Below, in pieces: positions 42,509 through 48,220 of a DNA stretch of 64,000 nucleotides. Under the pieces are notes generated by a model. The model ran no database searches. It was given only the letters and a program-made list of their open reading frames with translations, and was not told where the DNA came from. Each line of letters begins with the position of its first letter. Position 1 is the stretch's first letter. The stretch lies in NCBI GenBank assembly GCA_009773185.1, contig WPIF01000010.1:27853-91852 (forward strand), written 5' to 3'. Both the position numbers and the translations under genes were made by a program. The DNA is from Nitrospirota bacterium (lineage in GTDB: Bacteria; Nitrospirota; Thermodesulfovibrionia; Thermodesulfovibrionales; UBA1546).

Positions 42509-43897
42509 TTAAGGTTTTTCAGGCAAGAATCCGAATTTCTGCATCCTGTATCTTAATGCGTCCCGTGTGATATTCAGCAATCTTGAGGACTTTGTCTGGT
42601 TACCCCTTGTTATGTCCAATGCCTGCCTTATCAGCTCTTTCTCGACTTCTTCTATATCAAGACCGCCAGGGGGAATTTTTATGTCAATGCTCCTGACATT
42701 TGCCAGGGCAACCTCTTTTGAAGTGAATTCTATAGGGAGATGTTCAGGCAGTATAAAGTCCTCTTCGCTCTCGAGTATCATGGCTCTTTCTATAATATTT
42801 TTGAGTTCTCTCACATTTCCGGGCCATTGGTATTCTTTAAAATATTTTTCTGCTTCTTTTGAAATGCCCTTGAGGTTTTTCTTGAATTCCCTGTTAAATT
42901 CGTTTATGAAGTATTTTGCAAGGGTAGCTATGTCGCTCGGCCTGTCCCTGAGAGGCGGGATAAGGACAGGGATGACCTTAAGCCTGTAATAGAGGTCTTC
43001 CCTGAAATTGCCGCTTTTTACTTCTTCAGCAAGGTTTTTATTTGTTGCAGCAATTATCCTGACGTCAACTGTTATGTCTTTCACGCCGCCGATTCGCTTG
43101 AACATCTTGCCTTCTATGATCTTCAGGAGTTTTGCCTGGGTGCTGGGTTTCATATCCCCTATTTCATCGAGATAGATGGACCCGCCGTCTGCAAGCTCGA
43201 ACAGCCCCTTTTTCATGGCCTTTGCATCCGTAAAGGCCCCTTTCTCATGGCCGAACAATTCACTTTCTATAAGGGTCTCCGGCAGCGCTGTGCAGTTAAT
43301 CTCCATGAACGGTTTGTCGCTCCTCCTGCTCTGGTAATGTATCACCTTTGCTACAAGGTCTTTTCCTGTGCCGCTCTCGCCCTGAAGCATGATGGTTGTG
43401 GCATCGCTTTTTGCAATTTTCTTTATTAGCTCAAAAATCTTCTGCATTGCTTCTGACTGGCCGATTATGCTGTCAAACCCGTATTTTAAAGAAAGCTGCG
43501 ACCTGAACTGTGAAACCTCTTTTCTGAGGGAGACGGTCTCCAGCGCCTTTGCAACCAGTATCTTGAGCTTGTCTACGTTAAACGGCTTTTCAACAAAATC
43601 ATAGGCCCCGAGTTTTATGGTCTTTACCGCAGTCTGTATATCGCCAAAGGCAGTAATCATTATAGCGAGGGCATCTTTATTTATTTCTTTAATGCCCTGA
43701 AGGACTGTTATGCCCGAGACATCAGGAAGATGGATATCCAGAAGGGTGACATCAGGGGTCTCTTCTTTAAAGAGATTAAGCCCTTCCATCCCCTTTTCAG
43801 CAGTTATTACTGTGTAGCCCTCTTTTGAAAGGTTTTGCTGTAATGACCATCTCAGGAGTTTCTCATCATCAATGACAAGTATCTTTGCTTCCGGCAA
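42509..43897 (-). CDS. Sigma-54-dependent NtrC-family response regulator
   Basis: The 462 residues comprise a receiver (Asp54 in VTLLDIHLPDVSG), a central AAA+ domain (about 140-375) and a Fis-type helix-turn-helix (RQALDITRGNQTKSSRLLNITRDALRYRMQKFG). The AAA+ domain has Walker A GESGTGKD, the sigma-54 contact loop GAFTDA (a GAFTGA variant) and Walker B GGSIYLDEIGDM. It should activate sigma-54 promoters when phosphorylated by the kinase encoded just upstream. The start codon is TTG, supported by GGAGG 8 bases upstream. Target promoters were not located. Confidence 0.95.
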   Translation of the reverse strand: MPEAKILVIDDEKLLRWSLQQNLSKEGYTVITAEKGMEGLNLFKEETPDVTLLDIHLPDVSGITVLQGIKEINKDALAIMITAFGDIQTAVKTIKLGAYDFVEKPFNVDKLKILVAKALETVSLRKEVSQFRSQLSLKYGFDSIIGQSEAMQKIFELIKKIAKSDATTIMLQGESGTGKDLVAKVIHYQSRRSDKPFMEINCTALPETLIESELFGHEKGAFTDAKAMKKGLFELADGGSIYLDEIGDMKPSTQAKLLKIIEGKMFKRIGGVKDITVDVRIIAATNKNLAEEVKSGNFREDLYYRLKVIPVLIPPLRDRPSDIATLAKYFINEFNREFKKNLKGISKEAEKYFKEYQWPGNVRELKNIIERAMILESEEDFILPEHLPIEFTSKEVALANVRSIDIKIPPGGLDIEEVEKELIRQALDITRGNQTKSSRLLNITRDALRYRMQKFGFLPEKP

Positions 43898-43966: not shown

Positions 43967-45463
43967 TTACCCTTCTGAAACTTTTTCCCCTATTTCCCCT
44001 ATTGAACCTGTTTCCCCTTTATCAGTTTTAAGGATAACATGAAATGTGCTGCCAATACCAATCCGGCTTTCTACAACTATTTTCCCGTTGTGTTTTTCGA
44101 CTATGTTTCTGCTTATTGCAAGGCCGAGCCCTGTGCCTGCGTGCCTTGTGGTGAAAAACGGCTTGAATATATTTTTAAGGGCGTACTCTTCTATGCCCTG
44201 TCCGGTATCGGAAAAGGCCACCTCGGCCTCATCACTGTTGGACGTAAAATAAGTGGCTATTGTGAGTGTTCCTCCGGCAGGCATTGATTGAAGGGCATTC
44301 AGCATTAAGTTTAAAAATACCTGTTGCATCTGTTCCGGGTCAACATTTATTTCACCTATATCGTCTCCGGGAATCAATCTAATGATAACTCCCTGTCTTT
44401 GTGCCTGCAAGTCTACCAATCTTATGGCCCGTTCAATAATCGGCTGAAGGGATGTCAGTACCGGATGAAGGTCAGGCGGCCTTGCAAAGACAAGAAGTTC
44501 TTTTACTGACCTGTCAAGCCGGTCTATTTCATTCAGGACTTCAGTTATGACCTCTTTACGCGGATCGGTTGCAGAGAAGTCTTCTGCAAGGACCTGTATG
44601 GCCCCGCTTATCCCCGCTAGCGGATTTTTGATTTCATGAGCTATGGCGGATGCCAGTTCTCCGATTGTTGCCAGTTTCTCAATGTTCTGGATATCTTCAA
44701 AGTGGCACTTTTCTATCTCCCGCCTTGCCTTATCAAGTTCAAAAAGCATGGAATTCAGGGAGGACGCAAGTTTCCCTATCTCATCTTTTCTCCGCGTAAG
44801 AAATTTTACTGCCAGATCTCCTGCTTCTGCCTTTTTCATTGTATCTATGATCGAGATGATAGGCCTGTTGACGAGGTAAGTGGTAAGTATGCTCAAAAAT
44901 ATTGAGATAACAATAAGGGTTATTATCGAGAACAACACCATCCTTTTTCTGGAATCGTTAATCCTCTGAATGGTTTTAGTCATTGATACCTCGATATCAA
45001 GAACGCCTATTATTTCTCCCTTTGTTCCGTGACATCTCTGGCAGGGGCGCTCGTTATATATAGGAGCTATCATTGAATAGACTGCCTTTCCTTCTTTTTC
45101 ATGGGAAAAGACCTCCGGCAGCTTTTGGGTTTTGAATCTTGCCATGTGTTCAGGAGGGACAGGAGTGTTTATCTGAGAGGGGAGAGAAGAACTTATTATT
45201 GTTCCGTCAGGTGTGAATATCCATGCCTTCTCAACATCCTCGGTGATAACAGTTTCGATGAATTTCTGGAATTCCCGTCCTCTTCCTTCAAGCATGATTG
45301 TTATGAGGGTGTTTCTTATTATTTCAGTGATAAGAGAGATTCTTTCTTTTTCGTCTTCCTGAATCTCTTTTTCCTGCAGGCGCAGGTTTTTATAGGAAAA
45401 AGCCCCTATTATCACGAACAGTATGCATGTTGTAAAAAGGATGTATTTACTTTTAAGATTCAT
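43967..45463 (-). CDS. Sensor histidine kinase with CxxCH heme-binding periplasmic domain
   Basis: The 498-residue kinase has membrane helices at about 7-25 and 175-198. Between them lies a periplasmic sensor of the Tll0287/DUF3365 style, with C141-Q-R-C144-H145 (a c-type heme attachment motif) in YNERPCQRCHGTKGEIIGVLDIEVS. HAMP (about 198-250), HisKA with His276 in AIAHEIKNPLAGISG and the ATPase domain (DPEQMQQVFLNLMLNAL, FKPFFTTRHAGTGLGLAISRNIV) follow. It probably senses redox state or gas through covalent heme and phosphorylates the next-door NtrC regulator. It sits behind the cytochrome c maturation genes. Confidence 0.93.
   Translation of the reverse strand: MNLKSKYILFTTCILFVIIGAFSYKNLRLQEKEIQEDEKERISLITEIIRNTLITIMLEGRGREFQKFIETVITEDVEKAWIFTPDGTIISSSLPSQINTPVPPEHMARFKTQKLPEVFSHEKEGKAVYSMIAPIYNERPCQRCHGTKGEIIGVLDIEVSMTKTIQRINDSRKRMVLFSIITLIVISIFLSILTTYLVNRPIISIIDTMKKAEAGDLAVKFLTRRKDEIGKLASSLNSMLFELDKARREIEKCHFEDIQNIEKLATIGELASAIAHEIKNPLAGISGAIQVLAEDFSATDPRKEVITEVLNEIDRLDRSVKELLVFARPPDLHPVLTSLQPIIERAIRLVDLQAQRQGVIIRLIPGDDIGEINVDPEQMQQVFLNLMLNALQSMPAGGTLTIATYFTSNSDEAEVAFSDTGQGIEEYALKNIFKPFFTTRHAGTGLGLAISRNIVEKHNGKIVVESRIGIGSTFHVILKTDKGETGSIGEIGEKVSEG
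45029..45043 (-). other. CxxCH heme attachment motif in the kinase sensor
   Basis: The codons for CQRCH lie in the periplasmic loop, on the correct side of the membrane for covalent heme attachment by the ResB/CcsA system encoded just upstream. Confidence 0.8.
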
Positions 45464-45542: not shown

Positions 45543-46658
45543 TTATTCAAGGCTCCCGTAAGCATGAAGCCCTGAGAGAAGCAAATTAACTCCAAGGTAG
45601 GTAAATATCACGGCTATAAAGCCCATTACTGCAACGATTGCGACTTTTTTGCCTCTCCATCCCCTGAGCAGGCGGCTGTGCAGAAAAAAGGCATATACAA
45701 ACCATGTAATGAGCGACCATGTCTCTTTCGGGTCCCAGCTCCAGTAAACACCCCATGCCTGGTCTGCCCATATTGCCCCGAATATAAGCCCGCCAAGGGT
45801 GAAGATGGGAAAACCTATTGCAATGCTTTTATAAGTAATTTCATCCAGCATCTCTGCAGATATCGAGAATGAGCCTACAATTTTTTTGAGTATGTGCCCG
45901 TATTTCCAGACCATGAATATGAAAGCCACCGCTATGAGCAGGCTGAAGATTGAAACCGCCACGGATTTATTCAGGAATGATGCCTTAAAGAGGTAGCTTT
46001 TTATCAAAGTCTCCGGGGTTTTAATAGCGAGCCCGAAGCTGAGATAATCAAGTCCCATTGCAAAAAGAACTACAATGAAGATGCCTGACGTGACTGTCCA
46101 GAAGATATATGAGGATTCGGTGCGCTTGTCTGTTTTCAGTATCAGGTACATCAGTCCGGTGCTGAATGAGAGTGCAAATGTCGAATATGATATGAAGCTC
46201 ATCATGACATGCGCCAGTAACCAGTTGCTCTGCAGCGCAGGCACCAGAGGTTCTATTTCCTTTGACATGCCGGAGATATCTATAAATGCCAGTGCAAGGC
46301 CTGCTATGGGGGTCACAAAAGCGCCGAAAGAACGGGTCTTATATTTAAGCTCTATTATAAGATACCCCAAGATCAGGCACCAGACAAAGAATATAAGCGA
46401 CTCGAAGAGATTTCTCAAGGGAGCGCTTCTCAGAACAGACACTATAAAAGTGCTTTCAGGCGACATCATTGTCCACTGCGCATAATGTTCGGTCCATCTT
46501 ATTACGATTGCTATGGTCTGGGAAACAAATCCAGCTATTGTGACTGTTGTTGCCGCTATGCCTACCTGTGAATTCCTGAAGGCAAGATATGTTATATAGA
46601 TTATCATTGCCAGGATATAAGCCATTGTAGATATGCCAAATAATGTGGAACTGTTCAT
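45543..46658 (-). CDS. ccsA: Cytochrome c biogenesis protein CcsA/CcsB (system II heme handling)
   Basis: The 371-residue multi-pass membrane protein has the tryptophan-rich WWD-type motif WADQAWGVYWSWDPKETWSLITWFVYAFFLHSRL, with conserved histidines (HAVMMSF-type near 150, FFLHSRL, and GLHAYGSLE at the end). With ResB it moves heme to the periplasm and attaches it to apocytochromes. Its ATG overlaps the resB stop (ATGA), so the two are co-translated. Naming differs between groups (CcsA, CcsB, ResC). Confidence 0.94.
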   Translation of the reverse strand: MNSSTLFGISTMAYILAMIIYITYLAFRNSQVGIAATTVTIAGFVSQTIAIVIRWTEHYAQWTMMSPESTFIVSVLRSAPLRNLFESLIFFVWCLILGYLIIELKYKTRSFGAFVTPIAGLALAFIDISGMSKEIEPLVPALQSNWLLAHVMMSFISYSTFALSFSTGLMYLILKTDKRTESSYIFWTVTSGIFIVVLFAMGLDYLSFGLAIKTPETLIKSYLFKASFLNKSVAVSIFSLLIAVAFIFMVWKYGHILKKIVGSFSISAEMLDEITYKSIAIGFPIFTLGGLIFGAIWADQAWGVYWSWDPKETWSLITWFVYAFFLHSRLLRGWRGKKVAIVAVMGFIAVIFTYLGVNLLLSGLHAYGSLE

Positions 46659-48220
46659 TGCTTTCCTCCTCCATCTGATTTGCTCAGAAGGGCCATCATT
46701 TTATCAGTCTTTGCTTCGAGTGCCGTCCTGTTTTTATTTGCTGTAAGGGCAACAATAATACGTGTGCTGTTTTTTTCTTCGAGAAGCCTGACCCATATTT
46801 TTTTATGACTCATAAAAAAGGTAATATAAAGGCCGACAGCCATGACCATACAGCCGAGATAAACAACCCATACTCCCGGGTCTTTTCTTACCTGCAGGCC
46901 TGTATATTCAACGCCCCAGTAGTCTACGAACTCTACTGTGTGCCCATCGGGAAGGCCCCATGTCTGGGGATATCTTTTCATTATCCAGCCTGAATATTTT
47001 GTTTTTCCTTTTTCTGAAAACTCCAGGAATACGGCAGGATTATTCATCTGTTCTGCGAAGGTAAACGGCCTGTTATTAGCGTCAAATGAAAGGGCAGGGC
47101 TGAAATCTTTTAATGTCCCTTGTAAGTCAGTGCCGGGGATAATAAATTTATCATCACGGTGCATCTGCCTGGTTTCCGGGGCGCCGGATTTCGGCGTTAT
47201 TTTCATGATAAATTCACCGTGTGCGTTTGGGACCATGCCAAAACTCGACTGATAGAAAGTAACATCATTGTAGGTAAGAGGGTCGTTGACCACTATGCTT
47301 TTTTTAAACACCTCTTTGTTGCCTTTTATTATTGTCAGCCAGCTCCTGTATTCTTTCGGCATATTGGAGCCTTTATAGAAGTCTACCAGAAAGTTATCGC
47401 ACCTTATGCTGAAGCCGAGAGGCCAGATTCCGTATCTCTTCATCTTTGTTCTTAATGTTTTTTCGTCCACTCCAAACTGCCTGGCTGCCTCCTTAGCATT
47501 TCCCTCTGTTGCCTGTAATCTCTCTATTATGGCTTCCATCTCTGATTCTTCTTCCCTGCTTAAAAAACCGCCAGGCGCGAATGCCACAGAGTAAGTTTTT
47601 CCCTCGGGCAGGTTGAGATATCCCTTAAAACCAAAAATTATGCCGATGATTGCGCCTCCCAGTATCAGAAGAATGCTCAGGTGTGTTATATAAACGCCAA
47701 GGCGCGTGTAATTGCCCTTTTCCGAATAAAACTGATAACCGGTTGCTTCTTTTGCCTCTAGGAATTTAAAGCCTGCATGTTTTATGGCAGTTCCAACTGT
47801 CTCTTTTACTTTATCGGGTTTCCCTTTAAGAACGAGTTCTTTTTTCCCGAGATTTTTAAACTGTTCATCTGTCAGAGGCTTGATAGCCTCTTTTGCGAGT
47901 TTCCATATCCTCGGCAGCCTGTCAAGTGAGCAGATTATCAGATTTGCCGCAAAAAGGAGCAGTAGCCCGATGAACCACCATGAATGGTACATATCCATGA
48001 AGCCGAGGCTGTCAAGGATTTTATAAAATGCCGGAGCATTGGAGTCGCCGAAGAATTTAGCCAGCAGCTTAAGATTTTTTTCAGGCGCGACATTCTGCTC
48101 TACGATTGTACCTACGATTGACGTGAGCCCGATGAGCGCAAAAAGCACAACGGCAAGTGTTATGGATGCAAAAAAATTCCAAATTTTATCTATGATTGAT
48201 TTGTTTTTATTTTCTTCCAC
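46655..48220 (-). CDS. resB: ResB-family cytochrome c biogenesis protein with inserted helix-turn-helix
   Basis: The 521-residue protein has the ResB layout: membrane helices at about 18-38, 82-98 and 176-198, a large periplasmic domain, and a last helix near 455-475. The family segments SITLAVVLFALIGLTSIVGTIVEQN and WWFIGLLLLFAANLIICSLDRLPR are intact. Between GKTYSVAF and LGFSIRCDNFLVDFY, residues of about 217-267 insert EEESEMEAIIERLQATEGNAKEAARQFGVDEKTLRTKMKRYGIW, which reads as a Fis-type HTH. The start is GTG with AGAGGAGA in front. It forms an operon with ccsA and the kinase. Confidence 0.92.
   Translation of the reverse strand: MEENKNKSIIDKIWNFFASITLAVVLFALIGLTSIVGTIVEQNVAPEKNLKLLAKFFGDSNAPAFYKILDSLGFMDMYHSWWFIGLLLLFAANLIICSLDRLPRIWKLAKEAIKPLTDEQFKNLGKKELVLKGKPDKVKETVGTAIKHAGFKFLEAKEATGYQFYSEKGNYTRLGVYITHLSILLILGGAIIGIIFGFKGYLNLPEGKTYSVAFAPGGFLSREEESEMEAIIERLQATEGNAKEAARQFGVDEKTLRTKMKRYGIWPLGFSIRCDNFLVDFYKGSNMPKEYRSWLTIIKGNKEVFKKSIVVNDPLTYNDVTFYQSSFGMVPNAHGEFIMKITPKSGAPETRQMHRDDKFIIPGTDLQGTLKDFSPALSFDANNRPFTFAEQMNNPAVFLEFSEKGKTKYSGWIMKRYPQTWGLPDGHTVEFVDYWGVEYTGLQVRKDPGVWVVYLGCMVMAVGLYITFFMSHKKIWVRLLEEKNSTRIIVALTANKNRTALEAKTDKMMALLSKSDGGGKQ
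47426..47542 (-). other. Fis-like helix-turn-helix insertion within resB
   Basis: Residues 227-265 (MEAIIERLQATEGNAKEAARQFGVDEKTLRTKMKRYGI) fit the HTH_8/Fis pattern: a first helix, the GN.KEAA turn and the recognition helix TLRTKMKRYGI. They closely resemble the end of the NtrC regulator in the same operon (TRGNQTKSSRLLNITRDALRYRMQKFG). By ResB topology it should face the periplasm, where DNA binding would make no sense. Confidence 0.75.

Follow-up and report, generated by a model that had tools for sequence, protein, structure and literature searches.

A predicted Fis-type helix-turn-helix inserted at the base of the ResB beta-cap in part of the Thermodesulfovibrionia

In the stretch of DNA analyzed here (64,000 nucleotides of a Nitrospirota genome, hereafter the window), the cytochrome c biogenesis gene resB (ccsB) carries an additional segment that is predicted to fold as a Fis-type helix-turn-helix (HTH). 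We consider it probable that such an HTH was inserted in a beta-hairpin of ResB and has been kept as a folded, non-DNA-binding, periplasmic protein-contact module of the beta-cap. The first-pass annotation had placed a Fis/HTH_8 segment interrupting the periplasmic domain of ResB at 47426-47542, and this was borne out: the interval corresponds to residues 227-265 (EMEAIIERLQ...KMKRYGI), the whole insert being wider (residues 215-266; 47423..47578, minus strand) when compared with insert-less homologues. No description of an HTH-type insert in ResB was found in the open-access literature.

In System II cytochrome c biogenesis, ResB (CcsB) acts in the membrane as the partner of ResC (CcsA). The window's resB (46655..48220, minus strand) encodes 521 aa with a full-length match to the Pfam family PF05140 (ResB; 301 bits, residues 22-504) and is followed by resC (ccsA; 45543..46658, minus strand), which overlaps the resB stop and codes for the WWD heme protein (PF01578; 257.5 bits with TIGR03144 vs. 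a cut-off of 187.6), the WWD domain being present in the sequence as WGVYWSWDPKETW. Four transmembrane (TM) segments were predicted in ResB from hydropathy (residues ~20-40, ~80-100, ~175-197, and ~449-470), in agreement with the ResB/CcsB layout, in which there are four TM segments, TM3 carries TM-His2, and TM3 is separated from TM4 by a large loop, the periplasmic domain. The candidate for this heme ligand, which is located in TM3 of CcsB (PMC10663686), is H180 (47681..47683, minus strand), which is invariant. The insert-bearing long ResB is present as a single copy, the three other ResB-family genes of the genome being short (264-365 aa) and devoid of an HTH. These short genes, together with further CcsA/CcmC-like genes (PF01578) in the same genome (G000; contigs C14, C35, C36, and C38), suggest the presence of several dedicated cytochrome c synthases, and PF03918 (CcmH of System I) had no match in this genome. 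In one genus-level group (L005, L006, L008, L010), ResC, encoded after resB, reaches 507-521 aa (vs. ~361-385 usually), and the ~140 additional residues, with several hydrophobic segments beyond residue ~219, are possibly a partial internal duplication.

Downstream of resC lie a sensor histidine kinase (43967..45463, minus strand) and an NtrC-type regulator (42509..43897, minus strand) that itself has an HTH at the C-terminus. The gene order is resB, resC, histidine kinase, NtrC, which puts the regulator three genes further on and not two, as first described. The kinase contains a periplasmic CxxCH motif (CQRCHGTKG, within a Mcp40H-20/Tll0287-like sensor region), which suggests that it may be a c-type-heme sensor encoded beside a cytochrome c synthase. 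Many relatives keep it next to resBC, whether or not their ResB has the HTH insert, and the kinase/NtrC pair also adjoins insert-less resB genes (L020, L021, L023, L026, L027, L029, L032).

HTH_8 (PF02954) matches residues 224-263 of ResB with an E-value of 4.2e-8 and 33.2 bits (cut-off 22). The bounds of the insert (~215-266) were set by comparison with insert-less homologues, relative to which the carriers have ~50 extra residues (insert size 52-55). In the AlphaFold2 model of the whole ResB, three helices were predicted with a pLDDT of ~91, all encoded on the minus strand: helix 1 (residues 222-237; 47510..47557), helix 2 (residues 242-249; 47474..47497), which starts with A242, the equivalent of Fis Gln74, and helix 3 (residues 253-263; 47432..47464), the equivalent of the Fis recognition helix, with E253 at the place of Fis Arg85. 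Strands at residues 209-214 and 265-281 flank them. Folded alone, the insert reached a pLDDT of ~90, and its model overlays E. coli Fis at 0.6-0.7 Å over 42-43 residues (for 1etx 0.7 Å, 43 residues, TM 0.80); the HTHs of NtrC1/NtrC4 and ZraR could be overlaid too, and the nearest solved structures by sequence are likewise Fis and the ZraR/NtrC HTHs. A tri-helical HTH fold is confidently predicted. Dozens of independent genomes have this insert at an identical position, which rules out both an error of assembly and a motif arisen by chance.

All carriers have the insert at the identical point, flanked by GxTYSVAF and PLGFSIRC, in a beta-hairpin immediately ahead of the conserved plug strand of the CcsB beta-cap. 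The strand right after the insert and the plug-loop residues (residues 265-282; 47375..47428, minus strand) were located by alignment to CcsBA of Helicobacter hepaticus, a characterized System II cytochrome c synthase, in which F240 and Y245, residues of the beta-cap loop over the active-site heme (PMC10663686), align to F277 (at least 90% conserved) and Y282 (invariant). The same ResB profile aligns to the cryo-EM structure of CcsBA (7s9y) at residues 81-122 and then 228-291, and CcsBA thus has its own ~105-residue insert (123-227) at this hairpin. No hydropathy peak above 0.6, and hence no extra membrane segment near the insert, was found across residues 198-440 of the window's ResB, and the homologous site is on the periplasmic side in the solved CcsBA structure (PMC10663686); by hydropathy and homology, the module lies in the periplasm. 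The CcsBA alignment and the strand leading to F277/Y282 place the HTH as a graft at the base of the beta-cap, on its periplasmic side. In a fold search with the whole ResB model, 7s9y and 7s9z ranked first, but the TM-score was low (0.22). Presumably the relative orientation of the parts is not reproduced when ResB is modelled in isolation, and no claim about geometry is drawn from this search.

Carriers were counted as full-length matches to a profile that spans the insert and its ResB flanks, shorter matches being regulators. They were found in 35 of the 396 Nitrospirota genomes, all from the window's class (Thermodesulfovibrionia) and distributed over several families; these counts cover Nitrospirota, beyond which one contig scan sensitive to close relatives was run. 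About half of the homologues have no insert and possess a turn of 9-11 residues at the same place, and in a separate search with the whole ResB the carriers aligned unbroken, while non-carriers were split into residues ~2-219 and ~264-522. Within Nitrospirota, the segment is therefore limited to part of one class and, with its confidently predicted fold, does not fit the description of a part common to all ResB proteins that has no HTH fold, the outcome by which the initial reading was to be judged wrong.

Other inserts occur at this site. The f25 family, from another Nitrospirota class (L080-L085, L118, L119), has its own conserved insert of ~25 residues (LRNEPMWDKI...GVPAMPLGF) at the same hairpin, which makes the latter a recurrent insertion point. 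When ResB proteins are classed by this site, f25 and L014 stand apart from the short-turn and HTH classes by a stretch of ~34 residues that starts with EPMWDKI and is unrelated to the HTH. In L014 (resB from ~81), a ResB nested in an HTH-bearing clade, the place of the HTH is taken by an f25-type insert (NDEPMWDRISASLGL...), next to a resC of ordinary length, as if one module had been exchanged for the other by recombination. The idea that the f25-type 'mid' insert is a truncated HTH was unsupported (hhalign probability 5%). In a further ResB (L087, genome G162), model positions ~256-294, which comprise HTH helix 3 and the beta-cap plug strand and loop that follow it, are missing with the frame open, either through a real deletion or as an assembly artefact.

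When the insert columns are left out of the ResB tree, the HTH shows a clustered yet patchy distribution, with nine state changes (at least seven of them forced) and with sister groups that differ in its presence (L012 vs. family f1; L018/L088 vs. L063/L068); gains and losses are not told apart by this tree. In the HTH tree, the placement of all ResB inserts as one clade beats the free tree by 22 log units (AU p 0.88), which is modest evidence given the ~50 columns used. A single origin of the ResB inserts is compatible with this result and probably to be favored, and the two trees together suggest a single origin followed by repeated loss, transfer or replacement of the insert. As close relatives repeatedly lack it, the insert is dispensable in some lineages and not essential to System II. 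An origin from the neighboring NtrC, whose C-terminal HTH shares 34% identity with the insert, was unsupported and rejected because the HTH family of that regulator forms its own separate clade; it is not an evident source.

The pooled dN/dS (18 close pairs, saturated pairs excluded) was 0.24 in the insert, compared with 0.11 in the other parts of the periplasmic domain and 0.14 elsewhere; the insert is under purifying selection and less constrained than its host domain (~2x dN/dS). Six HTH core positions are kept in all ResB inserts and regulators compared. The position of Fis Arg85, the main base contact and essential for DNA binding (PMC7145599, PMC3711457), is occupied by R/K in none of the 43 ResB inserts vs. 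20 of 28 regulators (0/27 vs. 7/14 after clustering at 70%), with Glu in most inserts, and at that of Gln74, where helix 2 starts, 24 of 27 ResB clusters have a hydrophobic residue vs. 3 of 14 regulator clusters, one helix edge on the DNA-facing side having turned hydrophobic; these counts span related sequences and their Fisher values are indicative only. The net charge is +0.4 in the ResB inserts vs. +4.8 in the regulators, and hydrophobic surface substitutions at insert columns 18 and 28 are common to nearly all carriers. Judged from these residues, the insert is most likely a Fis fold that does not bind DNA, its key contact residue being gone, and if the former DNA-facing surface now packs against protein, the residue pattern is the one that would be expected.

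We propose that an ancestor within the class Thermodesulfovibrionia acquired a Fis/NtrC-type HTH, probably in a single event, in the periplasmic beta-hairpin leading up to the ResB/CcsB beta-cap. It would then have been retained as a folded module without DNA binding, as indicated by fold prediction, location, selection and loss of DNA contacts. Displayed in the periplasm, where it would elaborate the beta-cap in a lineage-specific way, the HTH may touch other parts of the ResB/ResC complex, or else the incoming apocytochrome c or its thiol reductant, and such contact would shape the access to the heme active site. The other inserts known from this hairpin offer an analogy for a protein-contact role, the larger one in Helicobacter CcsBA being part of a chamber-forming periplasmic domain. 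A narrower version, in which the Fis fold, once moved outside the membrane, became a substrate- or reductant-docking domain with the ex-DNA-facing edge as the new protein interface, is put forward tentatively, at clearly less than even chances. No strong covarying change was detected in ResC, where only weak group differences in loops and the C-terminus were seen. The patchy distribution, a dN/dS about twice that of the surroundings, the sequence drift of the family f7 insert far from HTH_8 and the basic residues that the window's own clade retains in helix 3 (KMKRYG) count against the proposal as a whole.

Several of these points speak for a serious if rather unlikely rival, namely that the hairpin is simply tolerant to insertions and that the HTH arrived by illegitimate recombination, is kept folded and harmless by selection and is freely lost. 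It owes its weight to the patchiness, and the raised dN/dS of the insert, the strong drift in family f7, the unrelated inserts at the same hairpin (~25 residues in the f25 family, ~105 in H. hepaticus) and the replacement of the HTH in L014 by an f25-type insert are all in line with it; however, an insert with a conserved core persists across deep, strongly diverged lineages, and the hydrophobic columns 18 and 28 in nearly all carriers suggest a packed interface. The first-pass annotation had proposed that the fold was reused as a protein or heme contact, and between these two the protein contact is favored here. That the insert would ligate or cradle heme close to the WWD active site fits its location just ahead of the plug strand but is very unlikely, as no His or Cys is conserved across the 43 inserts and the sole frequent Met occupies a core position shared with the regulators. 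Least credible is an unusual topology with a cytoplasmic, DNA-binding segment that ties heme handling to transcription, also raised initially, because, despite the clear HTH_8 similarity, the basic helix 3 in the window's clade and the adjoining two-component genes, the TM segments include no extra one, the homologous structure has this site in the periplasm (PMC10663686), Arg85 is lost at a net charge of about zero, and the kinase/NtrC pair stands next to resB even without the insert.

If the HTH is indeed a protein-contact module of the beta-cap, it would show, in a clean natural example, how a domain of transcription factors can be exapted to serve a membrane enzyme in the periplasm, with carriers, non-carriers and one swapped insert at hand for comparison. 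What the CcsB beta-cap does, whether occlusion, substrate binding or release, was stated as unproven (PMC10663686), and the lineage-specific module is grafted exactly at its base. More generally, an HTH_8 annotation in a membrane protein need not imply DNA binding.

Among known systems, the insert-less ResB of other Thermodesulfovibrionales (e.g., L019, L022, L029) are 50-52% identical to that of the window and have the same resB-resC order, often with the kinase and NtrC, but show the 9-11 residue turn instead of the HTH. The C-terminal HTHs of Fis and NtrC-family regulators (PF02954; PDB 1ETX, 1OJL, 4L5E) share with the insert the three-helix fold, the core residues and the pattern G-N...AA..LG...TL..K.K.YG, whereas the insert sits within the periplasmic domain of a membrane protein, is devoid of the Fis dimerisation helices and of the AAA+ domain of NtrC-family regulators, and has Arg85 replaced, mostly by Glu, with a charge near neutral. 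H. hepaticus CcsBA (PDB 7S9Y/7S9Z) differs in being a fused protein, while the window has separate ResB and ResC, and in the length of its insert, which is about twice that of the HTH and has no sequence or fold-search link to it, but it belongs to the same ResB/CcsB family, with the same beta-cap strand and plug residues, and bears its insertion (residues 123-227) at the very same hairpin.
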